NCBI RefSeq assembly: GCF_009923995.1
Contig: NZ_RFSK01000022.1
Coordinates: 1 to 64,000 of the forward strand
Origin: Janthinobacterium sp.
GTDB taxonomy: Bacteria > Pseudomonadota > Gammaproteobacteria > Burkholderiales > Burkholderiaceae_D
DNA length: 64,000 nucleotides
Reading direction: 5' to 3'
The translations under genes were made by a program, and so were the position numbers. Below are positions 6,015 to 19,684 of the stretch, piece by piece. Every line of letters starts with the position of its first letter. The stretch's first letter is position 1. The notes below the pieces were generated by a model. The model ran no database searches, had not been told where the DNA came from, and saw only the letters and a list, made by a program, of their open reading frames with translations.

Positions 6015-6058
6015 CGAAAAAAGAAAAAGCTACCCTCGGGTAGCTTTTTCTTTTTTCG
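6015..6058. terminator. Perfect 21-bp inverted repeat, probable bidirectional terminator abutting the island att repeat
   Basis: cgaaaaaagaaaaagctaccc-tc-gggtagctttttcttttttcg. Confidence 0.7.
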
Positions 6059-6073
6059 AGAGGGGGATTCGAA
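6058..6073. repeat. Distal att direct repeat of genomic island
   Basis: gagagggggattcgaa, identical to 19601-19616 in the 3' end of tRNA-Ser. Confidence 0.75.
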
Positions 6074-6198
6074 TCATGCTCTAGAGTCGCATAATTCTGG
6101 GATTTCGATCAATTCCAGATTGGAGAATCCCCCAAAACATACCCCCTCGAACCAGCTTATGACTTCACGCCCCCTCAATTCAGGGAACATAGTTATAG

Positions 6199-7428
6199 CT
6201 ATGCGAGCTGAGGAAGCTGGCTGATAAACAAGTCGGACACTTTGCCGGCTGAGCTGATCAAGTTTGACAGCAACCTCCAGTTCTCGGTTTCCTTACGAAC
6301 TCTCCCAGCAACGATTGCGGGATGAATTTGAAGCTGTCGCGCTAACGCAATTGCGTCGTCCTGCGCATAACTTATCCGGACTTGAGCCGTTGCCCACACA
6401 GCCTCTGGGATCAATGCTTCGCTAGCTTCCCGATCCGCTTGCTGTTCTTCTTCGCTTGAACGGGTCTTGTCATCCAAATTATCTACAATAGAGGGACGCG
6501 CAGCGGACAAATGGCACTGCACGTGAATCAACTCATGCAACAATGCAAACCAGAAATTATCTAAGCGGTCGTGGCGTAGTGTTAATGCCACGATCGGCAT
6601 TTCACTGTCCAGCAGTGCCGCGCCGTCGAGATATGTCTTGTCGAAGTGCTTCTCAAAGACAAGCGCAATGCCAAAGTTGGACAAGTATTCTTGAGCAAGC
6701 AGCGGCCCCATTTCGAACGAAGACAATCGTACCAAATCACGTAGCCACTGCAATGTGATAGTTCCTGGCTGATATTGGCCTTTGAGCGTTCGCGTGCGAG
6801 CCTTGCGCAGAACACAAGCTTGCCAGACCATCAAAGAGTGTTCATCCATCATGCGTGCGCCGCTTTGGTGTAATGTAGCGCGTAATTTGATTTGTTGCCC
6901 AGCAAGACCGGACATCGCTCTGAAGAACCCAGTCACCAGCTCCTCTGCGTAGTCCTTTAGATGCTGTACGCTACGCCTAGCATCCCCGAATAGGCCACGT
7001 TCCTGCATTTCTGCTAAAGGAAACTTAGTGTAATCAATGTTTGGCTCAGCAAACAGGTCAAAGACCTCGCCAATCAGCACATCCGCAGGGATACCTAAGC
7101 CGACATGTAATTTACGGATCATCGATAGGCTCAGCGGCCTTTTACGACCAAGAACTTCTGAAACCTTGGAAATTGAGCCAATGTAGGGAACCAGATCCTT
7201 TTGCGCCAAGCGTTGTTGATCCATTCTGAATAGGATCGCGTCAATAGGATCAGGGAGGGACGGAGGGAAACGATTTTTCTCATACGACTGAATGACGAGT
7301 GCGAGCAGCTCCAACTCTGCATCTTCAGTAGAACCGAGCGTAGGATCTTTGTCCATAAGCTCAGACAGGCGAGCAACGGCAGCGGCGTAGTCACCTTCCG
7401 TTTTAAGTACTCGAATCTGTGTGTTCAT
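6199..7428 (-). CDS. HigA-type HTH antitoxin fused to ImmA/IrrE-like metallopeptidase domain
   Basis: 409 aa; N-terminal HigA-like HTH ('RLAQKDLVPYIGSISKVSEVLGRKRPLSLSMIRKLHVGLGIPADVLIGE'); C-terminal HExxH 'LLHELIHVQCHL'; directly downstream of higB-like gene. Confidence 0.8.
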   Translation of the reverse strand: MNTQIRVLKTEGDYAAAVARLSELMDKDPTLGSTEDAELELLALVIQSYEKNRFPPSLPDPIDAILFRMDQQRLAQKDLVPYIGSISKVSEVLGRKRPLSLSMIRKLHVGLGIPADVLIGEVFDLFAEPNIDYTKFPLAEMQERGLFGDARRSVQHLKDYAEELVTGFFRAMSGLAGQQIKLRATLHQSGARMMDEHSLMVWQACVLRKARTRTLKGQYQPGTITLQWLRDLVRLSSFEMGPLLAQEYLSNFGIALVFEKHFDKTYLDGAALLDSEMPIVALTLRHDRLDNFWFALLHELIHVQCHLSAARPSIVDNLDDKTRSSEEEQQADREASEALIPEAVWATAQVRISYAQDDAIALARQLQIHPAIVAGRVRKETENWRLLSNLISSAGKVSDLFISQLPQLA

Positions 7429-7460
7429 ACTGACCTCCTGACGCTAAAGTACATAGGTTT

Positions 7461-7757
7461 CTACTTGTTGAAATTCTTCTTGTTGTACTCGGCATGCGTA
7501 CCACCCCACTCGATCAAGACGAGACCGTTGCGGAAGCGAACTTTCACGACAAGCCGGTATGAATTACCTTTAATGTTGAAAATAATCCTGTTGTCAGCCA
7601 AGAAGCTGGCCGTTGAGAACCGATCTTTAACGTCCTGCGGCCCAGCCCATTGCCCGCGTTCAACCTCTGCACGCCAAGCATCCAGTGCGCCACGCGCATC
7701 AGCATGCGTATGCTTCAGTGCCTCAAGCACTTCCAAGTGAACTAGCTGCATAGGCAC
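7461..7757 (-). CDS. HigB-type mRNA interferase toxin
   Basis: 98 aa; 'FLADNRIIFNIKGNSYRLVVKVRFRNGLVLIEWGGTHAEYNK' typical of the HigB_toxin family. Confidence 0.85.
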   Translation of the reverse strand: MPMQLVHLEVLEALKHTHADARGALDAWRAEVERGQWAGPQDVKDRFSTASFLADNRIIFNIKGNSYRLVVKVRFRNGLVLIEWGGTHAEYNKKNFNK

Positions 7758-7766
7758 CGCCCTGAC

Positions 7767-7806
7767 TTCCCAAATTTATTCAAATTATACATTCCCAATT
7801 TGGGAT
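7767..7806. promoter_or_regulatory. Putative TA operator / divergent promoter region
   Basis: Palindrome tcccaa-t-ttggga (7793-7805) and a half-site ttcccaaatt (7767-7776) between higBA and the hsd operon. Confidence 0.5.
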
Positions 7807-7940
7807 ATGTCAAATGTCCCTGCACCATTTTGTCAAGTCCCCTCACAAGTTATTCGATTGCATCAAAATTTATGCAGCATCAACAATGCTGCGATAAATT
7901 GTTGGTGCAATGCTAGCACGCATACGCTAAAATATGCAAC

Positions 7941-8549
7941 ATGTTCAATGATGCGAAAAAACTTAATCTCAAAGATGTCGCCAGAATTCGTGGCGGCCAC
8001 CCCTTTCGCGGCTCAGTGCCAGTAATTGCAAATGCTCCTGTGGCTGTTGTGCAGATGAAAGACATCCTTCCATCGGGTCAGATCGACTGGTCGTCCACCG
8101 TTCGAACTGAGCTTGTAGGACGCAAAGAACCTGACTGGCTCAAGCCTGGAGACATACTATTCATCTCAAGAGGTAATCGATACCACGCTGCCTGTGTGGA
8201 CCAACCTCCGCCCCTTGCTGTGTGCGGTGCTCACTTATTTCATCTCACTGTACGAGACCCTGACATCGTTCTCCCAGCCTTCCTAGCTTGGCAGATTGGA
8301 CAGCCTCCTGTTCAGCGGCAACTTCAGCAGGCCGCCTCAGGCTCACACCAGCTCAGCGTCGCGAGGCCCGCTTTGGAGGCATTAGAGATCGCAGTGCCCT
8401 CTTTGAAGACCCAGCGACTTCTCGTTGATCTCGCGGACATGGCTCAACGTGAGAAAGCCTTACTCACAGCCATGATCCGTAATCGCGAACAAGAACTCGA
8501 AGCCTTGGCACATGCAATTGCCGAAGGCATTCCCCTGAATTTTTCCTGA
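7941..8549 (+). CDS. Half-size type I restriction specificity (HsdS-like, single TRD) protein
   Basis: 202 aa; 'WLKPGDILFISRGNRYHAAC' and 'SGSHQLSVARPALEALEIAVPSLKTQRLLVDLADMAQREKALL' resemble a single TRD plus spacer helix; upstream of hsdM. Confidence 0.75.
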   Translation: MFNDAKKLNLKDVARIRGGHPFRGSVPVIANAPVAVVQMKDILPSGQIDWSSTVRTELVGRKEPDWLKPGDILFISRGNRYHAACVDQPPPLAVCGAHLFHLTVRDPDIVLPAFLAWQIGQPPVQRQLQQAASGSHQLSVARPALEALEIAVPSLKTQRLLVDLADMAQREKALLTAMIRNREQELEALAHAIAEGIPLNFS

Positions 8550-8556
8550 GTAACCT

Positions 8557-10071
8557 ATGACCGAAACAACTTCCGTTAGCCAGGACACCATCAACGCGGC
8601 AGTCTGGAACGCTTGCGACACATTCCGTGGCACAGTTGACCCTAGCATTTACAAGGACTATGTCCTAACCATGCTTTTCCTGAAGTACATGTCTGATGTC
8701 TGGCAGGACCACTACGACGACTACAAGAAGCAATTTGGTGACAACGACGAGCTAATTATCGAAATGCTCAAGAACGAGCGGTTTGTTCTACCACCACGCG
8801 CAAACTTCTATGTGCTGTACGACAAGCGATTCGAACCGGGCAATGGCGAACGTATCGACACAGCACTACATGCCATCGAAGACGCCAACATCAGCAAATT
8901 ACGAGATGTCTTTCAAGACATCACTTTCAACTCCAACAAGCTAGGCGATGAGCAGCAAAAAAACGACATCCTACGGCACCTAATGGAAGACTTTGCCAAG
9001 GAGGAGTTAAATCTCGGCCCCCACCGCGTCGGAACTCTCGACGTGATTGGAAATGCATACGAGTATCTGATCAAGAACTTCGCATCTACGAGCGGCAAAA
9101 AGGCTGGCGAGTTCTACACACCACCCGAGGTGTCCACACTCATGGCTCGTTTAATGGACCCGCAAGAGGGAGAAGAGATATGCGACCCCACCTGTGGCTC
9201 TGGCTCATTGCTGATGAAGTGCGGCCGCTTGATCCGCCAGCGCACTGGTTCTCGTAAATACGCCTTGTACGGCCAAGAGGCCATTGGCAGTACTTGGGCG
9301 TTGGCCAAGATGAATATGTTCCTACATGGCGAGGACAATCACCGGGTGGAATGGGGTGACACCCTGCGCAACCCCAAACTACTCGACAGTGAGAGCACAC
9401 TCAAGCATTTCGACATCGTAGTCGCTAACCCTCCATTCAGTCTGGAAAAGTGGGGCCATGAGAATGCCGAAGCCGATAAATTCGGACGCTTCCGGCGGGG
9501 GGTGCCGCCTCGCACCAAAGGTGACTACGCCTTCATCTTGCACATGGTTGAGACTATGAAGCCGGGCACCGGCCGCATGGCGGTAGTGGTGCCGCATGGC
9601 GTACTGTTCCGTGGAGCCGCCGAAGGCAAAATCCGCCAGAAACTGATCGAGGAAAACTTGCTGGACATGGTGATTGGCTTGCCTGAAAAGCTATTCTATG
9701 GCACTGGCATCCCAGCCGTTATTTTAGTGTTCCGCAAGCGCAAGCGCGACGAGAAGGTCTTGTTTATAGATGCAAGCCGCGACTTCGAAGATGGCAAAAA
9801 CCAGAACATGCTGCGCGAGGACGATTTACGGCGCATTTTGAGCACTAGCCAGAATCGTCACGATGTTAATAAGTACGCCCACTTGGCGACCTTGGCTGAA
9901 ATCACTGAAAACGACTTCAATCTTAACATCGCGCGGTATGTTGACACATTTGAGGAAGAAGTCGAGATCGACCTGATGGCTGTACGTCGCGAACGTGCTC
10001 AACTCAAATTGGAGCTAGCCATGCTGGAAGAAAAGATGACGACCTATTTGAAGGAGCTGGGCTATGAGTGA
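8557..10071 (+). CDS. hsdM: Type I restriction-modification system DNA methyltransferase subunit M
   Basis: 504 aa; 'GEFYTPPEVSTLMARL', 'DPTCGSGSLL', 'FDIVVANPPFS' (NPPF). Confidence 0.96.
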   Translation: MTETTSVSQDTINAAVWNACDTFRGTVDPSIYKDYVLTMLFLKYMSDVWQDHYDDYKKQFGDNDELIIEMLKNERFVLPPRANFYVLYDKRFEPGNGERIDTALHAIEDANISKLRDVFQDITFNSNKLGDEQQKNDILRHLMEDFAKEELNLGPHRVGTLDVIGNAYEYLIKNFASTSGKKAGEFYTPPEVSTLMARLMDPQEGEEICDPTCGSGSLLMKCGRLIRQRTGSRKYALYGQEAIGSTWALAKMNMFLHGEDNHRVEWGDTLRNPKLLDSESTLKHFDIVVANPPFSLEKWGHENAEADKFGRFRRGVPPRTKGDYAFILHMVETMKPGTGRMAVVVPHGVLFRGAAEGKIRQKLIEENLLDMVIGLPEKLFYGTGIPAVILVFRKRKRDEKVLFIDASRDFEDGKNQNMLREDDLRRILSTSQNRHDVNKYAHLATLAEITENDFNLNIARYVDTFEEEVEIDLMAVRRERAQLKLELAMLEEKMTTYLKELGYE

Positions 10072-10174
10072 GTTTGACCTTATATAGGACGAACTGGGAC
10101 TTCACTCTACCAAAGACGGCAGTACGCAGTATCGCTCGCTGGCAGTGCGCAGCATAATCTCAGACCAAAGCCGT
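10064..10174 (+). pseudogene. Short interrupted ORF overlapping the hsdM stop (MSEFDLI*DELGLHSTKDGSTQYRSLAVRSIISDQSR*)
   Basis: ATG at 10064 overlaps the hsdM stop; TAG after 7 codons, then open in the same frame to TAA. Confidence 0.4.
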
Positions 10175-10237
10175 TAAGCGAAGCTAAAGATATGAAGATA
10201 CTAAAAAAATTGAGTATCTATTGAAAAAGAAAAATTA

Positions 10238-11491
10238 ATGTCAATCCAGTCACTACCTAAGAGCTGGCAAATCAGCACTGTTGCCAGTCTCTGTAAAATG
10301 CAGAATGGACACAGCTTTGGCCCCAATGATTGGGATGTTACGGGCCTTCCAATTATTCGCATTCAAAACTTAAATGGAGGGAAGGAATTTGACTACTTTT
10401 CTGGAATACCTGACCCCCGATGGATTGTGGAACCAGGCCAATTGTTGTTTTCTTGGGCTGGTACAAAAGGCGTTTCGTTTGGCCCATTCATTTGGCGCGG
10501 ACCAAGAGGGGTATTAAATCAACACATTTTCAAAGTTTTGGCGAGTGAGAATATCAGTAAAGAATGGCTCTATTGGGCACTAAAGGATGTCACAAGTCGA
10601 ATTGAAGCGCAGGCGCATGGATTTAAAGCTACATTGGTTCATGTAAAAAAATCTGACATTGAACGACAACAGCTCCTTGTTCCTACCGGCGCAGAACAAC
10701 GTTATATCGCTCAGGCTCTATCTACATGGGAGCAAGCCATTGCTATAAGTGAAGTCATGCTTAGCAATAGCAAAAAACAGCGTCAAATGATCGTTCATCT
10801 GCTTACTAGTGGAAAACTTCAGTTGGCTGATTTCCAAAATTCAGCTGAAAAATTCAAAACGGCGCACGGTTCAATCCCTTCAAACTGGAGCTACCCGAAC
10901 ATTGGAGAAATAGCTGTCGAGGTCAGCCAAAAGCTGCGAGATGGAGAGCCTCTCCCTGTACTTTCGTGTACGAAATATACGGGCCTCGTGGACTCGCTGA
11001 GCTATTTCAAAAAGCAAGTATTCAGCAAAGATATTTCCACGTACAAAGTTGTTTCGCGTGACTGTTTCGTCTACGCAACCAATCACATAGAAGAGGGATC
11101 AATTGGATATCAGGACCTGTATGAGAAAGCCATCGTCAGTCCCATGTACACTGTCTTTAAAACGCATGGAGAAATTGATGATGGGTATTTATACCAACTC
11201 CTGAAGACAGAGAAATACCGCCAGATATTTTCTGCAGCGACCAATGCTTCAGTGGATAGGAGAGGCAGCTTGCGCTGGAAGGAATTCAAGAAAATTCATG
11301 TCCCGTTACCCCCTTTAGCAGAACAGCGTGCGGCTATATCAGTGTTTGACACATTTTACTCTGAAGTAACAAATCTAGAAAAACAGTTGGTTACTTTAAA
11401 AGCAGAGAAAAATGCACTTATGACGATACTGCTAACAGGTAAGCGGCGCCTTACTCGAAATAGCCTACCTCATGTAGAGGCATCTACATGA
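10238..11491 (+). CDS. hsdS: Type I restriction-modification system specificity subunit S
   Basis: 417 aa; two TRD modules with 'PTGAEQRYIAQALSTWEQAI' and 'LPPLAEQRAAISVFDTF' conserved regions. Confidence 0.93.
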   Translation: MSIQSLPKSWQISTVASLCKMQNGHSFGPNDWDVTGLPIIRIQNLNGGKEFDYFSGIPDPRWIVEPGQLLFSWAGTKGVSFGPFIWRGPRGVLNQHIFKVLASENISKEWLYWALKDVTSRIEAQAHGFKATLVHVKKSDIERQQLLVPTGAEQRYIAQALSTWEQAIAISEVMLSNSKKQRQMIVHLLTSGKLQLADFQNSAEKFKTAHGSIPSNWSYPNIGEIAVEVSQKLRDGEPLPVLSCTKYTGLVDSLSYFKKQVFSKDISTYKVVSRDCFVYATNHIEEGSIGYQDLYEKAIVSPMYTVFKTHGEIDDGYLYQLLKTEKYRQIFSAATNASVDRRGSLRWKEFKKIHVPLPPLAEQRAAISVFDTFYSEVTNLEKQLVTLKAEKNALMTILLTGKRRLTRNSLPHVEAST

Positions 11492-14400
11492 GCAACACCC
11501 CGCAAACCCGCGAGCAATACAGCGCCCACATTCCGGCCCTGCACCTGATGTGCAATCTCGGCTGGAACTACCTAAGTTCCGCGTCAGCCCTCGCGCTTCG
11601 CGGTAACACACGTGAAGTTTTACTCAAGCCGCGTTTGATCGAAATACTTAAAACCCGCCGCTTTGATTACAAAGGAGAAACATTTCCCCTCTCACCCGGC
11701 GGTATCGATCAGATTGTGCGTGAGATTTCCAATATTAACCTCGCCGAAGGCCTCCTTCTTGCGAACGAGCAGCTCTACAATAAGCTCACCTTGGGCATTA
11801 CCATCACGGAGTTCATGCCCGATGGCAAAAAGCATCAGCCCACGGTGGCCATTCTTGACTGGCTCAATCCCATAGCCAATTTATGGGATGTTACTGAGGA
11901 ATTGGAGGTGCTATCCGTCCAGGGCACGCATACACGCAGACCTGATGTGGTGGCCTACGTTAACGGTATCCCTCTGGTAATAATCGAAGCTAAGCGCCCT
12001 GAATCCGTACGTGCCGACAAAGCAATGGTGGCTGAGGGCATTAGCCAGCACCTACGCAATCAGCGGTCAGATGAAATCCCCAATCTTTTCTCATATGGAC
12101 AACTTTTATTATCTATCAGCCAGCTAGATGGCCGCTATGGCACCACGCACACCGCTGCCAAATTCTGGGCGAGGTGGCGCGAAGAGCAGTTTGATGACGC
12201 GCACTTCAGCACACTTAAAAACAAACCACTTTCCGGAGAAACCCACGCCGCTCTGTTTGAAGGCAAACCAGCGTATGTGCGCGCATACTTTGAATCGCTG
12301 TGGTCCCAGCCCACGCTACCAACCGATCAGGACAGACTGCTGGTGAGCTTGCTCACGCCAGAGCGCTTATTGGATGTCTTGCGCGGCTATATGCTATTTG
12401 ACCGCAAGGTGGGCAAGGTGGTAGCCCGTTACCAACAGTACTTTGGTATCCGCGCCCTGCTTGCTCGCCTGAACACGTTCAAGCCAGACGGTAGCCGTGA
12501 AGGTGGTGTGGTGTGGCACACCACAGGCTCTGGCAAGAGCTTCACAATGGTGCTGTTGACCAAGGCATTGTTGTTGAACGAAGGATTACGGGATTGCCGC
12601 GTGGTGGTGGTGACTGACCGCATTGATCTAGAGTCGCAACTGGCTAAGAACTTCATGTCTGGCGGCGCGTTTGGCTCTGCCGTTGGCACAAAGAAGGAGG
12701 GCGAACGTAGCAAGGTGTTGTCAGGCCGCGAGCTGGCCAAACGCATTGGTCATAGCAATGATCGAATAATTTTCACATTGGTCCATAAGTTCAATACTGC
12801 GGCCAAGCTGCCTGACTGCCGCAATGACTCGCACAATCTTATCGTGCTGGTGGACGAAGGCCACCGCAGTCATGGCGGCGAAACCCATGAACGAATGAAG
12901 CAGGCCCTGCCTAAGGCCGCCTATGTGGCCTTCACCGGCACGCCATTGCTCAAGAACGAGAAGACGTCCAACAAGTTTGGCCCCATCGTGCATGCATACA
13001 CAATGCAACGCGCCGTGGAGGACGAAACGGTGGCACCACTTTTGTATGAGGAGCGAGTGCCGGAACTCACGATCAATGAAGGAGCTGTGAACCGTTGGTT
13101 TGACAAGATCACTGCTGGTCTTGCTGACGCTCAGCGAACCGACCTCAAGCAAAAGTTTGCTAAGAAGGGAGCCATCTACGGTGCGAGCAACCGCATCGAG
13201 TTGATAGCCTGGGATATTGCTGCCCACTTTAACGAAAACATCAAAAAACTGGGTATGGGGCTCAAAGGCCAAGTGGCCACTGAACGCAAGCTTGATGCCA
13301 TTCGCTATAAGAAAGCGCTAGATGAAACAGGCCTGGTGACTAGCATGGTAATAATTTCGCCGCCAGACACCCGCGAGGGTAACGACGAAGTTGATGAGGA
13401 CCAGTTGCCCGAGGTGCAAAAATGGTGGAAGCAGAACATCACTGAAAAGGGCTTGGATGCTGAAAGCTATGAGCGCCATGCGCTGCAAGACTTTGGAAGT
13501 GATGGAAGCCCTGATTTGTTGATCGTGGTGGATCGTTTGCTGACGGGCTTTGACGAGCCACGCAATACCGTCCTCTACATCGACAAGCCGTTGAAGGGTC
13601 ACAGCCTTATTCAAGCCGTCGCACGAGTGAACCGCCTGCATGATGCGAAGCGCTATGGTGTGCTGGTGGACTACCGGGGCATTTTGAAGGAGTTGGACAC
13701 AGCTGTGCGTGCCTATCAGGATCTTGAGGCGAAGACTCAAGTTGGATTTGATTTGGCCGACTTAGATGGCCTGTACAAGCAGTTCAGTACCGAGTACAAA
13801 CGGCTGCCTGGTTTTCACGACAAACTGTGGTCCTTTTTTAGGGCCGTAGCCAATCGCAAAGACACCGAGCAGTATCGCCAAGTACTTACACCGAAGTACA
13901 CAACCGATGCCGATGGCGAAGAATACGACGAACGGCAGAAACTGCGAGAAGACTTTTATGCAGCCTTGACCGAGTTCGGTTTGTGTCTGCAAACAGCACT
14001 GTCATCGCGCAGCTTCTTTGAGGACCATAGCTTCTCTGAGGAGCAGATCACACGGTACAAAGAAGACCTAAGGTTTTTCACTGAACTGCGTAAAACTGCC
14101 AGGCGCGATGCCATGGAGACGGTCGATTATAGCGTCTACGAAGAGCAGATCCGCAAGCTCGTGGACAAGCAAGTTATCGGCACTGAGGTGCGTGAGCCAG
14201 ACGGTGTATACCTTGTCCACGAATTGGGTAAACCCGAGGATCCGAAGGACTGGACTGAGGAGAAAACGCGCAACGAGACGGACATAATTCGTACTCGATT
14301 GCGCAAGACTATCGAGCAGGATCTGGCAGAGGATCCCTATGCGCAAAAAGTATTCGCAGACTTGTTGAAGCAAGCCATCGCCGATGCTGAGGCCATGTTT

Positions 14401-14760
14401 GATCATCCGCTCAAACAGTACGCATTGTTCAAAGATTTTGAACAGACCTTGCAGGCGCGCGCCACACCGGGCGTTCCTGATGCGTTTGGCGACAACGGGC
14501 ATGCCAAGGCCTACTTTGGCGCAACCAAGTTGGTGCTTGGCGATGGCGCCGATCAACACGTGGCTTTGGCCTTCGAGATGGACCAAGTGGTACGTAATGC
14601 TGTGGCAGAAAACTCCTTAAACCCGCAAAATATTGAAGCAGCTATCCGAAAGGGATTGTTGCCAAAGCTGTTTACAGTCATGGGCCTGGACAACGCCAAG
14701 TTAGTGATTGAGCAGGTAATTCACATCACACGGGTAGGTTTGAGTCGCCATGCAGGGTAG
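11488..14760 (+). CDS. hsdR: Type I restriction endonuclease subunit R
   Basis: 1090 aa; N-terminal nuclease 'PLVIIEAKRP', Walker A 'WHTTGSGKSFTM', 'LIVLVDEGHRS', 'FTGTPL'. Confidence 0.96.
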   Translation: MSNTPQTREQYSAHIPALHLMCNLGWNYLSSASALALRGNTREVLLKPRLIEILKTRRFDYKGETFPLSPGGIDQIVREISNINLAEGLLLANEQLYNKLTLGITITEFMPDGKKHQPTVAILDWLNPIANLWDVTEELEVLSVQGTHTRRPDVVAYVNGIPLVIIEAKRPESVRADKAMVAEGISQHLRNQRSDEIPNLFSYGQLLLSISQLDGRYGTTHTAAKFWARWREEQFDDAHFSTLKNKPLSGETHAALFEGKPAYVRAYFESLWSQPTLPTDQDRLLVSLLTPERLLDVLRGYMLFDRKVGKVVARYQQYFGIRALLARLNTFKPDGSREGGVVWHTTGSGKSFTMVLLTKALLLNEGLRDCRVVVVTDRIDLESQLAKNFMSGGAFGSAVGTKKEGERSKVLSGRELAKRIGHSNDRIIFTLVHKFNTAAKLPDCRNDSHNLIVLVDEGHRSHGGETHERMKQALPKAAYVAFTGTPLLKNEKTSNKFGPIVHAYTMQRAVEDETVAPLLYEERVPELTINEGAVNRWFDKITAGLADAQRTDLKQKFAKKGAIYGASNRIELIAWDIAAHFNENIKKLGMGLKGQVATERKLDAIRYKKALDETGLVTSMVIISPPDTREGNDEVDEDQLPEVQKWWKQNITEKGLDAESYERHALQDFGSDGSPDLLIVVDRLLTGFDEPRNTVLYIDKPLKGHSLIQAVARVNRLHDAKRYGVLVDYRGILKELDTAVRAYQDLEAKTQVGFDLADLDGLYKQFSTEYKRLPGFHDKLWSFFRAVANRKDTEQYRQVLTPKYTTDADGEEYDERQKLREDFYAALTEFGLCLQTALSSRSFFEDHSFSEEQITRYKEDLRFFTELRKTARRDAMETVDYSVYEEQIRKLVDKQVIGTEVREPDGVYLVHELGKPEDPKDWTEEKTRNETDIIRTRLRKTIEQDLAEDPYAQKVFADLLKQAIADAEAMFDHPLKQYALFKDFEQTLQARATPGVPDAFGDNGHAKAYFGATKLVLGDGADQHVALAFEMDQVVRNAVAENSLNPQNIEAAIRKGLLPKLFTVMGLDNAKLVIEQVIHITRVGLSRHAG

Positions 14761-15478
14761 CATCCACTACGGAGAACATGTCTTACCTTACGAGGTTCGT
14801 ATCCAGCCGGGACGGTCATCGCAGCGAGTAGCAATTCACGTTGAGCCAGATGGGCGTATCTTCGTCGATGCACCTGAGACAGCGTCAGAGAAAGAAATCA
14901 ATCAAGCCGTCAAGGTGAGAGCACGATGGATCTTTGGGCACGTTGCTGCGGCCAAGGAGCGATTACGCCATGTACTCCCACGCGAGTACGTCAGTGGTGA
15001 ATCCCTGATGTATTTAGGACGTCGATATCGGCTGAAGGTTACGCTGGCAGTAGATTCCTTAGTAACGGCTCGCATGCGCGGTGCATTCATTGAAGTATTG
15101 GTACCGGAGTCTGACCCAAACTTGGTGCGCTTAGGACTCAGGTCCTGGTTTCGGCAAAGAGCTCGAGTCGTACTGACTGAGCGAGTACAGTTAATGGCAG
15201 CATCACTCCGATGGGTTTCGGGCACTCCACCTCTGCGGTTGTTGACAATGCGCAGCCAATGGGGAAGTTGCTCGCCTGCCGGGCGATTAACTCTCAATCC
15301 TCAACTGGTCAAGGCGCCAAGAGAATGCATTGACTACGTCGTACTACATGAGCTATGTCATTTAAAGGAGCACAACCATACTCAGCGGTTTTACTCACTG
15401 CTAGAAAAGCAGATGCCTGGCTATCAGGCCATCAAACTACGGCTAGATGCCATAGCGGACTCACTCCTAAATGAGTAA
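14750..15478 (+). CDS. YgjP/DUF45 (WLM-like) metallopeptidase, overlapping hsdR
   Basis: 242 aa; 'RSQWGSCSPAGRLTLNPQLVKAPRECIDYVVLHELCHLKEHNH' HExxH. Confidence 0.88.
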   Translation: MQGSIHYGEHVLPYEVRIQPGRSSQRVAIHVEPDGRIFVDAPETASEKEINQAVKVRARWIFGHVAAAKERLRHVLPREYVSGESLMYLGRRYRLKVTLAVDSLVTARMRGAFIEVLVPESDPNLVRLGLRSWFRQRARVVLTERVQLMAASLRWVSGTPPLRLLTMRSQWGSCSPAGRLTLNPQLVKAPRECIDYVVLHELCHLKEHNHTQRFYSLLEKQMPGYQAIKLRLDAIADSLLNE

Positions 15479-15710
15479 GCTGACTAACCTTTCAGTCGCT
15501 AGGGCAACCTCACCTAACTTCCCCCTCAGGATGGTGGGCAAGAATTGATCTTGGCCTGTGATGCCGGCCTGTGCGAGTTGACACAGGCAGCGCTAGCAAT
15601 TGAAAGCTGATCCGCGACCAGTACTAATGGCTATTAGCAAATCTTTCCTAGAAGTACCTGTCATCGCAGCCTCCGGTGGCACCTATGCGCGTTGCTGATC
15701 CAGCAGTCGT

Positions 15711-15923
15711 TCATTCTCTCGTGTAGGAGACGCTTCGGCTAGCATCTATGCAGCGCTGCTGCCATTGAGCGATTTCCTCTGCGTCCCAGGCGACGGACTT
15801 GGGGCCAATGGGAATCGGCGCTGGCAACACGCCTGCCTTCACCTTGCGCCAGATTGTGGCGCGGGACCAGCCGGTGGCCTCGATTACCGCAGGCAAGCGG
15901 AGGAATTTTTTAGTCGTGGTCAT
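15711..15923 (-). CDS. AlpA family phage-type transcriptional regulator / excisionase-like
   Basis: 'FLRLPAVIEATGWSRATIWRKVKAGVLPAPIPIGPKSVAWDAEEIAQWQQ'; ATG at 15923 with GGAG upstream. Confidence 0.85.
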   Translation of the reverse strand: MTTTKKFLRLPAVIEATGWSRATIWRKVKAGVLPAPIPIGPKSVAWDAEEIAQWQQRCIDASRSVSYTRE

Positions 15924-15957
15924 AAGATTCTCCTTCGATTGATGAACACCAAGTAAT

Positions 15958-15978
15958 GGAGAGTCATGCCGACTCTCC
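15958..15978. promoter_or_regulatory. 8-bp stem hairpin upstream of alpA-like gene
   Basis: ggagagtc-atgcc-gactctcc. Confidence 0.45.
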
Positions 15979-16059
15979 GCGATCATTCCGGCAGCGCCAG
16001 GGCTGCACCCTTTACATATCTTCCGCCCCATGCGCTGCGGCCCTGATACAAGTGGGCGG

Positions 16060-16926
16060 TCATCTGCCCAGGTAGATAGACGTGACCTGTTCACGACCAT
16101 GCCCCATCTCCGTCGAAATCTTCAGCCGCGCAGCGTTATCCGCCAATTTTTGCGACGCATCCAGCTGTTTGGAAGTCGCGCCGCCACAAGCTGGACTAGT
16201 TCGGCCAGTCAACTCGGCATAGCGCCGCTGCGCGTACTCATGGCGCAGCCCATGCACACCATGAACGCCAGCCTTGTCGCACTGCGCACGAAAGCGGTTC
16301 AACTGGTCCCGATACCGCAACTGCGCCGGAATCAGGCTGCCTTTTCCCGCCAGCGCCTTGGCCGCATCCAGCACCGCGCGCTGCTGCGTGGTGGTAATCG
16401 GCACCTCCCGATATTTGCCGCCCTTGGTCCAGCTATCCTGCAACCGCAGGATGTTCCCGCCATCGGCCCATCCCGGCTTGATCTTGATGCTTTCCTCGCG
16501 TCGCAAACCAAACGCCGCCTGCAGCTGCAGGGACATGCGCGTATACGGATCATTCACGCGGGCCAGCGTGTCGGCGTCCAGCACCTTCGCCTTCGAAACA
16601 TTGGTGACAAACACCCGCTCCGCGATGCCATATTCGCCGTTGGTGCGCGCAATAATGTTTTCCTTGCCGATCTTCTCGGCCCACCATCGTAGGGCGCTCA
16701 TGCGATTCTTGATCGTGCCGGTACTGACGCCATCCTGCTTCCACTTGTCTAGCAGCGCCGCCACATGTTTCGGTTTCAGGCTGTCCACACTCATATGCTG
16801 GAAGCCCCGTTCGGCCAGGTCGTTGGCGCACAGGGTTAATAGGCGCTCGCGGTCGGCCTGCGTCGCAAAGCTGCCATCCCGGTTGCGGTGACACAGTTGC
16901 TTGAGCTGGTAGTTCAAGTCGCGCAT
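16060..16926 (-). CDS. Second tyrosine recombinase (phage integrase N-terminal/SAM-like domain type)
   Basis: 'MRDLNYQLKQLCHRNRDGSFATQADRERLL...'; catalytic pattern 'FGLRREES', 'HGLRHEYAQRRY', 'MGHGREQVTSIYLGR'; start approximate. Confidence 0.82.
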   Translation of the reverse strand: MRDLNYQLKQLCHRNRDGSFATQADRERLLTLCANDLAERGFQHMSVDSLKPKHVAALLDKWKQDGVSTGTIKNRMSALRWWAEKIGKENIIARTNGEYGIAERVFVTNVSKAKVLDADTLARVNDPYTRMSLQLQAAFGLRREESIKIKPGWADGGNILRLQDSWTKGGKYREVPITTTQQRAVLDAAKALAGKGSLIPAQLRYRDQLNRFRAQCDKAGVHGVHGLRHEYAQRRYAELTGRTSPACGGATSKQLDASQKLADNAARLKISTEMGHGREQVTSIYLGR

Positions 16927-17011
16927 GGCAAAGTCATCCTTTCGATCATTGGTTTTCACATCGATGCCGCGTGGTGTAATCCTGTCTGGTAAGTGTTTCT
17001 GGCCACCCTCA

Positions 17012-17815
17012 CTGCCTCGGCAGAAAAGGTTGAATCAAGGGCCTCGGGACACCACTCCCGTGTATGCGGTTGCTGTTACTGCCTGCCCGCGCCGCATGCG
17101 CGTGTGGCACCGCTGCGCGCTCCCGGAGGAAGCTGCCGCAGCGGGGACCAATCACCCAGGGTCCATGGAGTGCACATCGTGCACGGATCAACTTCAACTA
17201 ATCAGCCCGTAGCGGGCAAAGGACATCGCAGGGCTTGCCTGCGATGCGGGGCGCCTGGCCCCGTCACTGAACACCATCACGCGGTGGAATTCCGCTTGCC
17301 GCCGGGGCCTATGCCGTCGGCGGCGCGTCGTCACTGGCAGCAAGCCGCCAGTAACGACGCGCGCACGTAGCCATGGCATGTGACGGCATACACGCCAGCA
17401 TCGCACTCGCGGTGACGATACTGGCGACTCTGAAGCACATGCGCTGGCGGCAGCCGCGATGGCATCGCATCGCTGGCATTTCTGCTGACGGTGCGGCTTG
17501 CGGCAAAGCCATGCTGTGCTTCATACGGTGCGCTACCTCGCGGGGCATGCGAACCAATCGGGGCAGGAGTCTTGCTCCTGTTTGAGGAAGCGTCCATCGG
17601 GCGCAATCATCCAAGCAATCCGACTTGCGGATTGTGGGATATGAAGACGCTGAAGGCAGCGCTTTATCGTGCCGAGATGTGCATGCTTCTGCATGGCCCG
17701 GCGATATATCTAGCAGAAACTGCTAAGTATCATGGTGGCGGGTGACGACCGCAACGCCTATGCCGCTAAGCATAGGGACATGCTCGATGCATGCCCTCGT
17801 GGGAGCGATTCCCAC
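17012..17815. other. Dense array of ~20 short hairpins, apparently non-coding, between the two recombinase modules
   Basis: Consecutive perfect or near-perfect inverted repeats, e.g. 17224-17246 catcgcagg-gcttg-cctgcgatg, 17247-17263 cggggc-gcctg-gccccg, 17323-17362, 17564-17580 caggag-tcttg-ctcctg, 17616-17634 caatccg-acttg-cggattg, 17757-17776, 17799-17815. Confidence 0.65.
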
Positions 17816-17826
17816 ATAAGAGAGCT

Positions 17827-18048
17827 TCATTCTATGCCTGATATCGACGTTTGCAAGTGGTTCGTTTCGTCAAGTGCGCTTTTCGTAGTACGCAGAATTG
17901 GGACCGGCGCGGACTGGGCTGCTGCTACTGGATTGACCGGCAGCGTTGCAGCCCGGACAAAGGCTCCGATAGCTAGTTTATGTAATTTTTCCTTGGAAGC
18001 GGTCTGCTTGATAAGCGCATCCGTGAGGCGCAGTACATACTCAGACAT
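17827..18048 (-). CDS. Small protein resembling the arm-type DNA-binding N-terminus of the adjacent P4-type integrase
   Basis: 73 aa from ATG 18048; SD aggaggg 4 nt upstream; overlaps integrase 3' end by 8 nt; 'LTDALIKQTASKEKLHKL' vs integrase 'LTDARIRNAKPREKLYKL'. Confidence 0.6.
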   Translation of the reverse strand: MSEYVLRLTDALIKQTASKEKLHKLAIGAFVRAATLPVNPVAAAQSAPVPILRTTKSALDETNHLQTSISGIE

Positions 18049-19351
18049 GGTGCCCTCCTGTTCCGCCATCCCGGCTGAACTCACCGCTGACCAGCGTTAA
18101 TCTGGGCGTCTGCGGCGGCTCTCCCTTGCCGCTGACGGCATCGATGTAGTCGGCCCAATCCTGCATCATCTTGCGCCGTTCCGCCAGGAACTGCGCCCGG
18201 TCATAGGCACTGGCCACCTTGTCCTTCGGTGCATGTGCCAGTTGCCGGTCCACGACTTCATGCCGGTAGCCAAGGCGCTCCTTGATGGTGCTCATGGCCA
18301 GCGCCCGGAAGCCATGGCCGGTCATCTTGCCCTTGTATCCCATGCGTCCAAGCGCCACCAGTATCGTGTTATTGCTGATCGGCTTTTCGTGGTCGCGCTG
18401 ATTCGGGAACAGGTACTTGCTGCGGCCCGTGATCGCGTGCAGTTCGCGCAGCAGCTCCAGCGCCTGGCGCGACAGGCAGACGTGATGATTGGTCATATCC
18501 GGATTGACGGTCAGCTTGCCGCGCTTCATGCGCTGCCATGGAATGATCCACTCGCCGCGCTCCAGGTCGATTTCACTCCAGGGCGTTTCGATCAGCTCGC
18601 TAGTGCGCACAAAGCACAGCAGCATCAGCCGCAGCGCAATGCGGGTCGGCGCGAACATGCGCGCTTCGTTGCGGTCCAGAATGGCCAGAAACTGCGGTAG
18701 TTCGTCGGCGTTGATAGCGGCGAAGTGTCTGGCGCGGACGGTCTTCAACACATCCTTCATATCGGTGACCAGATTACTCTCTGTGAATCCGCATTGAATC
18801 GCGTAGCTGAAAATTGACGCACATACCGCTTTCTGGCGATGGGCGATTTCGCTTGCGCCGCGCTCCTCGATCTTGCGCAGTGCAGCGATTACATCGAGGT
18901 GCTTGAGTTCATCGATGGGCCTGCGGCCAATGGCCGGGAAGATATCTGCCTCCAGCCGTTGCAGGACGTTCTTGGCGGTGCGCTCGCTCCAGGTCGGCAC
19001 CTTGTTGGCGTGCCACTCGCGGGCAATCTTTTCAAATGTGTTGGCGGCGCGCTCCTTCAATCGCCGCTTGGCGTCATCGCGGTGCTTGCCGGGATCGATC
19101 CCTTGCAGAATCAGGCGGCGGGTCTCCAGGCGCTTTTCGCGAGCATGCTGCAGCGTGATTTCCGGATATGGGCCGAAGGTCAGCAGGTTGTCCTTGCCGT
19201 TGGCCTGTCGGAACTTGAAGCGCCAGATGCGCGAACCGCTTGGCGTCACCTCGATGTACAAGCCGTCGCCATCAAACAGTTTGTACAACTTCTCGCGTGG
19301 CTTGGCGTTCCTGATACGAGCGTCAGTCAGCGGAGCAATGATCTTGGGCAT
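18041..19351 (-). CDS. P4-type tyrosine site-specific integrase (DUF4102 arm-binding domain)
   Basis: 'LTDARIRNAKPREKLYKLFDGDGLYIEVTPSGSRIWRFKFR'; 'ALRLMLLCFVRTSELIETPWSEID', 'GHGFRALAMSTIKERLGYRHEVVDRQLAHA'; adjacent to tRNA-Ser. Confidence 0.95.
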   Translation of the reverse strand: MPKIIAPLTDARIRNAKPREKLYKLFDGDGLYIEVTPSGSRIWRFKFRQANGKDNLLTFGPYPEITLQHAREKRLETRRLILQGIDPGKHRDDAKRRLKERAANTFEKIAREWHANKVPTWSERTAKNVLQRLEADIFPAIGRRPIDELKHLDVIAALRKIEERGASEIAHRQKAVCASIFSYAIQCGFTESNLVTDMKDVLKTVRARHFAAINADELPQFLAILDRNEARMFAPTRIALRLMLLCFVRTSELIETPWSEIDLERGEWIIPWQRMKRGKLTVNPDMTNHHVCLSRQALELLRELHAITGRSKYLFPNQRDHEKPISNNTILVALGRMGYKGKMTGHGFRALAMSTIKERLGYRHEVVDRQLAHAPKDKVASAYDRAQFLAERRKMMQDWADYIDAVSGKGEPPQTPRLTLVSGEFSRDGGTGGHHV

Positions 19352-19516
19352 GATGCACCTCCACGTCAACGTGTTGAAAGAACACTATAGACAAGATGGT
19401 GCAAATTAAAAGAGTAGACGATCAAGGGTATGCCGCCGATCCCGCATCACCTACCCTAAAAAAAGCGCGATGCATTGAAATGGGCTGACACGACCTGAGA
19501 CGCCGAAAAACGAAAA

Positions 19517-19553
19517 AACCGCTTAGAATCAAGGCTCTAAGCGGTTTTTGAGG
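19517..19553. terminator. Terminator hairpin between integrase and tRNA-Ser
   Basis: aaaaccgcttagaatcaaggctctaagcggttttt. Confidence 0.65.
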
Positions 19554-19593
19554 GACTTCCTGAGACGTCCTGATCTTACTTAATTACTATCCG

Positions 19594-19684
19594 TGGCGGA
19601 GAGAGGGGGATTCGAACCCCCGATAGGCTATGAACCTATACACGCTTTCCAGGCGTGCGACTTCAACCACTCATCCACCTCTCC
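19594..19684 (-). tRNA. tRNA-Ser (GGA), CCA encoded
   Basis: Reverse complement GGAGAGGTGGATGAGTGGTTGAAGTCGCACGCCTGGAAAGCGTG...GGGGGTTCGAATCCCCCTCTCTCCGCCA. Confidence 0.93.
19601..19616. repeat. Proximal att direct repeat in tRNA-Ser 3' end
   Basis: gagagggggattcgaa, identical to 6058-6073. Confidence 0.75.

Follow-up and report, generated by a model that had tools for sequence, protein, structure and literature searches.

Mobile elements can encode a non-catalytic version of their own recombinase, as is the case of Tn5 Inh and IS1 InsA, which come from transposases, for the most part from the transposase gene itself, and which resemble in this respect the integrase-partner gene that we describe here. 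In KplE1, which has the tRNA-int layout, the integrase IntS is negatively autoregulated by its own binding at the att region (PMC2951348). The window analysed here, that is, the whole stretch of 64,000 nucleotides of Janthinobacterium DNA, carries an integrase gene in the vicinity of a tRNA-Ser gene and a short open reading frame (ORF) directly behind it:

18041 to 19351, reverse strand: P4-type tyrosine integrase of 436 aa, with Arm-DNA-bind_3, Phage_int_M and Phage_integrase domains
18048 to 17827, reverse strand: 73-aa ORF, an open frame with an ATG start
19594 to 19684, reverse strand: tRNA-Ser(GGA), called by ARAGORN, its 3' end being the island attachment site
6058 to 6073, reverse strand: distal att core TTCGAATCCCCCTCTC, an exact 16-bp copy of positions 19616-19601 of the tRNA-Ser
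15711 to 16100, within the island: AlpA-type gene, separate from the 73-aa ORF

Given the 16-bp copy of the tRNA at 6058-6073, the island covers about 6058-19616 (~13.5 kb). The flank of the empty site in G123, G202, G238 and G169, four related genomes with tRNA-Ser sites that carry no island, aligns directly past the distal att core, and wherever a complete genome among those examined contains the island, the integrase adjoins the same tRNA-Ser. Type I restriction-modification genes, a YgjP-like metallopeptidase, an IrrE-like peptidase gene, the AlpA-type regulator and a second recombinase make up the cargo, and the AlpA-type regulator adjoins this second tyrosine recombinase (Phage_int_SAM_2 and Integrase_1 domains) in the same island (15711-16959). 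In another genome (G158:C1:4890841-4922871, loci L088 and L102) the tRNA-Ser 3' end occurs in two exact copies at a distance of 32 kb, one of which is not part of a whole tRNA, and these probably mark two islands in tandem. The window integrase is under purifying selection. Integrase arm domains (18041-19351 in the window and loci L033-L047) are of at least three types, characterised by MPKIIAPLTDLL, MAKLIVPLSE and the window's MPKIIAPLTDAR, and because pS in the arm domain (0.33-0.41) is far above that in the nearly constant catalytic part (0.12-0.16), comparison of these genes suggests that arm domains have been swapped between islands.

A sequence-only reading of this locus had proposed that the 73-aa ORF encodes a mini-protein mimicking the arm-binding domain of the integrase, and the observations on which it was built hold. 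The frame opens at 18048 and shares 8 nt with the end of the integrase gene, whose stop TGA lies at 18043-18041 on the reverse strand; a strong SD, AGGAGGG, stands upstream of the ATG with a spacing of 4 nt; LTDALIKQTASKEKLHKL of the ORF and LTDARIRNAKPREKLYKL of the integrase N-terminus share 10 of 18 residues; and these shared residues use different synonymous codons, just as had been quoted. BLASTP adds 12 identities over 28 residues (E=3e-4, in a single comparison), the similarity being limited to residues 1-25 of the ORF. Judging from the alignments, this resemblance is real homology and it extends along the full 212-214 aa of the intact allele found in other genomes. The argument drawn from the codons stands as regards an old divergence and past selection, but this selection worked on the 212-214 aa parent and not on the 73-aa ORF. 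A recent copying event of the 5' part of the integrase gene was considered and ruled out, because the homology spans the entire intact alleles and the divergence is old.

The intact gene uses the same start codon, overlaps the integrase in the same manner and runs uninterrupted for 212-214 aa in seven other Janthinobacterium genomes, and one deletion of ~565 bp, common to the window and six other genomes, has removed codons 26-214. Deleted (n = 7) and intact (n = 7) alleles have identical starts, overlaps and flanks and differ by a clean internal gap. The window thus holds the following parts:

17974 to 18048, reverse strand: codons 1-25, what remains of the partner gene at its 5' end, from a codon-by-codon alignment with the intact 212-214 aa alleles of the seven Janthinobacterium genomes
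17973 to 17976, reverse strand: deletion junction AAAC/TAG/CTATCGG, from the alignment with intact alleles
17827 to 17973, reverse strand: codons 26-73 and the stop, partner-gene 3' flank in an accidental frame

The missing length is 569 bp (563 bp when measured against the 212-aa alleles), the stop TAG being found at index 894 (888) in the intact alleles versus index 325 in the window, and the junction shows a 2-nt microhomology (TA). As the sequence of the junction implies, the old TAG is now read across two codons, and therefore residues 26-73 correspond to the former 3' flank of the partner gene. The seven deleted alleles give ORFs of 27 aa (two alleles), 59 aa (four alleles) or 73 aa, this last length being unique to the window because its allele alone has lost 1 nt, between positions 17932 and 17931. 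The frame and length of a functional conserved gene are hence not kept in the orthologous islands. A segment of ~46-50 bp (17903-17945) is present in all deleted alleles and in no intact one, and the tail, with a p-distance of 0.072 among deleted alleles and with indels, varies more than the downstream noncoding DNA (0.023-0.043). Codons 1-25 are open in the seven deleted alleles with a pN/pS of 0.34, a value from a short stretch in which residual selection is possible. In a family-wide search, the first and second halves of the 73-aa sequence matched separate places in sister genomes.

The surviving codons 1-25 encode the first helix and the first strand of the partner's arm-binding domain, the full arm fold comprising ~80 residues. 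The match to Arm-DNA-bind (DUF4102, here PF13356) that had been sought for the 73 aa was absent from the Pfam search even at E<=10, and NCBIfam gave no match. Lack of this match and loss of the ORF's integrity in sister islands were the two outcomes that the sequence-only reading had named beforehand as counting against it, and both were found. The mimicry of an arm domain does not apply to the 73-aa ORF, a deletion product that misses most of the fold, but it holds structurally for the 212-214 aa parent. Pfam revealed no Xis/AlpA-type excisionase domain (small winged-helix/HTH) in either the 73-aa ORF or the intact parent. A SopB-type HTH match of the 73 aa (PF18090, E=0.061) is under the cut-off and spans the read-through tail, and plasmid matches (TraC and RepC, E>=3 among the matches listed) are likewise attributed to chance. 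Searches of viral contigs yielded no relative of the 73 aa and none of the 214 aa. These comparisons with intact alleles show the 73-aa ORF to be the deletion scar of a larger integrase-partner gene, and this scar has no arm-binding fold and almost certainly no function as a protein.

Examination of the intact parent identified an integrase-like protein throughout, with 37% identity to the integrase over 208 aa (E=1e-39). Its residues 8-90 match PF13356 (Arm-DNA-bind_3) with 77.2 bits, the curated cut-off of this family being 27 bits, and the model of its arm domain superposes on the arm domains of the HPI and HAI7 integrases (3jtz, 3ju0, 3rmp) with an rmsd of 0.8-1.1 A. Over 90 columns, hhalign pairs the C-terminal region with the core-binding domain of the integrase (97.2%, E 3.6e-11); this region has no Pfam match of its own and was left out of the Foldseek match, which concerned the arm domain alone. 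AlphaFold run on a shallow alignment gave low confidence past residue 92 and improved moderately when integrase rows were added, the core-binding-like helical region then being modelled with moderate confidence (pLDDT about 65-73). Pfam found no Phage_integrase (catalytic) domain in the parent, which ends at residue 207-214, and it lacks the catalytic domain, with R..H-x-x-R..H..Y, of tyrosine recombinases. By these domain comparisons, the parent consists of a complete P4-type arm-binding domain followed by a core-binding-like region and lacks a catalytic domain.

The alleles described so far form clade A. Clade B comprises proteins of 207 aa, ~40% identical to clade A, encoded in nine further Janthinobacterium genomes some 10 nt behind the integrase, and in the complete genomes checked it is found at the same tRNA-Ser. 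The frames are open in 16 of 16 intact alleles of both clades, with no stops, and pooled pN/pS is 0.307 in clade A and 0.314 in clade B, where dS reaches about 1.1; as estimated from these substitutions, the parent gene is under purifying selection over its full length in both clades. If an integrase-coupled partner family is defined by an open frame of 207-214 aa after int under purifying selection, these 16 alleles belong to it and the window allele is a deleted ex-member. When a tree was built together with integrases from the genus and the family, clades A and B grouped on a single branch that excluded every integrase (support 87/98), and the topology indicates that they probably have a single origin. 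No member was found outside the genus in 325 genomes of the family (E<=1e-15) or in 399 of the order (E<=1e-25), and the open-access literature searched yielded no account of such a catalytic-domain-free integrase partner. A further genus of the same family has two P4-type integrase frames arranged in tandem at a distance of 1.66 kb (G267:C33:358326-360601), which may illustrate how a partner gene could arise. The gene has been lost from seven of the 14 A-type islands and is therefore dispensable for island persistence.

Taking these results together, we have good confidence in an account of two linked parts: the 73-aa ORF is what a deletion has left of a larger gene, and the intact parent would be an arm-site-binding, catalytically dead regulator of the integrase, this second part being the less certain. 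In this account, the ancestral island carried a 212-214 aa integrase-like partner gene immediately after int, with its start overlapping the int stop codon. One deletion of ~565 bp took codons 26-214 and also put the stop out of phase, and the 25 remaining codons then ran on into the old 3' flank, for 27, 59 or 73 residues according to which point changes came later. The intact parent would be translated from the int message in a coupled manner and, by itself or together with integrase protomers, would occupy arm sites lying between tRNA-Ser and int. An arm-site-occupying protein is suggested by the combination of coupled translation, an arm fold of the integrase type and the lack of a catalytic domain. 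The parent bound at these sites may repress the int promoter, which would overlap that att end, and/or limit or bias recombination, and islands with the deletion would be free of this control. The order of tRNA and int places the expected int promoter within the att region, and because of this and of the self-repression of KplE1 IntS (PMC2951348) a dead-integrase repressor or modulator is the leading reading. Binding of the parent to the att arm sites, by which it would repress or tune the integrase, is the most likely mode of action, and we lean, by a little, toward a self-encoded, catalytically dead regulator whose arm-site binding represses int or limits recombination.

The main rival to repression is that the intact partner acts as an activator, filling arm sites and aiding intasome assembly or excision, which we consider unlikely. 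The parent keeps the arm-binding and core-binding-like module of the integrase, and the isolated arm domain of lambda Int can work in trans on truncated Int. However, islands without the partner persist in seven genomes in which the integrase is intact, and the island of the window retains its att core, although sequence cannot reveal past mobility. It is very improbable that the partner is a slowly decaying duplicate integrase that has lost its catalytic half: the gene does derive from an integrase and is gone from half of the A-type islands, but both clades show purifying selection along the whole gene, with dS reaching about 1.1 and with none of the 16 alleles interrupted by a stop, and this, together with the likely single origin of the clades, speaks against decay. 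Scant probability is likewise given to a role in cis of the leftover start codon, in which translation or the SD would affect the int mRNA or the termination of int translation and the peptide sequence would be irrelevant. The ATG is present in all seven deleted alleles and the SD in six, being weakened to GGGAGGG in the other; the SD falls within C-terminal codons of the integrase that are themselves constrained, and the conservation of ATG and SD is weak evidence because the deleted alleles are closely related (p-distance about 0.05-0.07). A functional mini-protein mimicking the arm-binding domain has next to no chance of being correct, since the strong SD, the 8-nt overlap, the arm-like N-terminus and the stop-free codons 1-25 are outweighed by the three different lengths among seven alleles of one deletion, the fast-changing tail with its indels, the 25 residues left of about 80 in the arm fold and the failure to match Arm-DNA-bind in Pfam or anything in NCBIfam.

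The scar is ordinary in itself and points to a conserved gene that is intact in sister islands, one in which the DNA-binding part of an integrase is split from its cutting part and placed directly behind int. If the partner controls int, related islands with and without it constitute a natural experiment on island silencing. A second kind of companion, of 144-160 aa and composed of an arm domain and a conserved ~45-aa tail that contains LRAFLxAT (LRTFLDAT in one row), directly precedes P4-type integrases in six genomes that belong to several families of Burkholderiales (loci L135, L136, L137, L138, L139 and L154). At L135-L138 the companion shares 10-14 nt with the integrase frame that follows, and at L139 and L154 it stands just ahead of the integrase. 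L136 and L137 have tails and integrases of the same type and different arm domains. Arm-only companions are candidates for a recurrent class, and we tentatively put forward, with some doubt, that catalytic-domain-free arm-binding companions may form a recurrent and unrecognised class of P4-type integrase regulators, located behind int in 16 Janthinobacterium genomes or ahead of it in Burkholderiales, and that lineages of the window type lose the companion and its control of mobility.

Compared with known systems, the parent is alike in sequence and fold to the P4-like integrase arm-binding domain (PF13356; HPI integrase 3jtz/3rmp, HAI7 integrase 3ju0), but its copy is not joined to a catalytic domain and the window retains 25 residues of it, which go unmatched. 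Its C-terminal region aligns with the P4-type core-binding domain (Phage_int_M, PF22022) over 90 columns (hhalign 97.2%), yet it is not matched by Pfam itself and the chain stops where the catalytic domain would start. In the parent and in the upstream companions alike, the arm region finds its best PHROG match in phrog_3423 (157 aa, annotated as of unknown function), the match covering the arm region alone, about 110 residues. Unlike Tn5 Inh and IS1 InsA, the partner is a separate, anciently diverged gene adjoining a tyrosine integrase. The closest regulatory likeness is to IntS/TorI of KplE1, where the int promoter overlaps the att region beside a tRNA and binding to the DNA at this place keeps the integrase in check (PMC2951348); in that system the integrase and a small RDF act, whereas here a separate integrase-like protein would do so.
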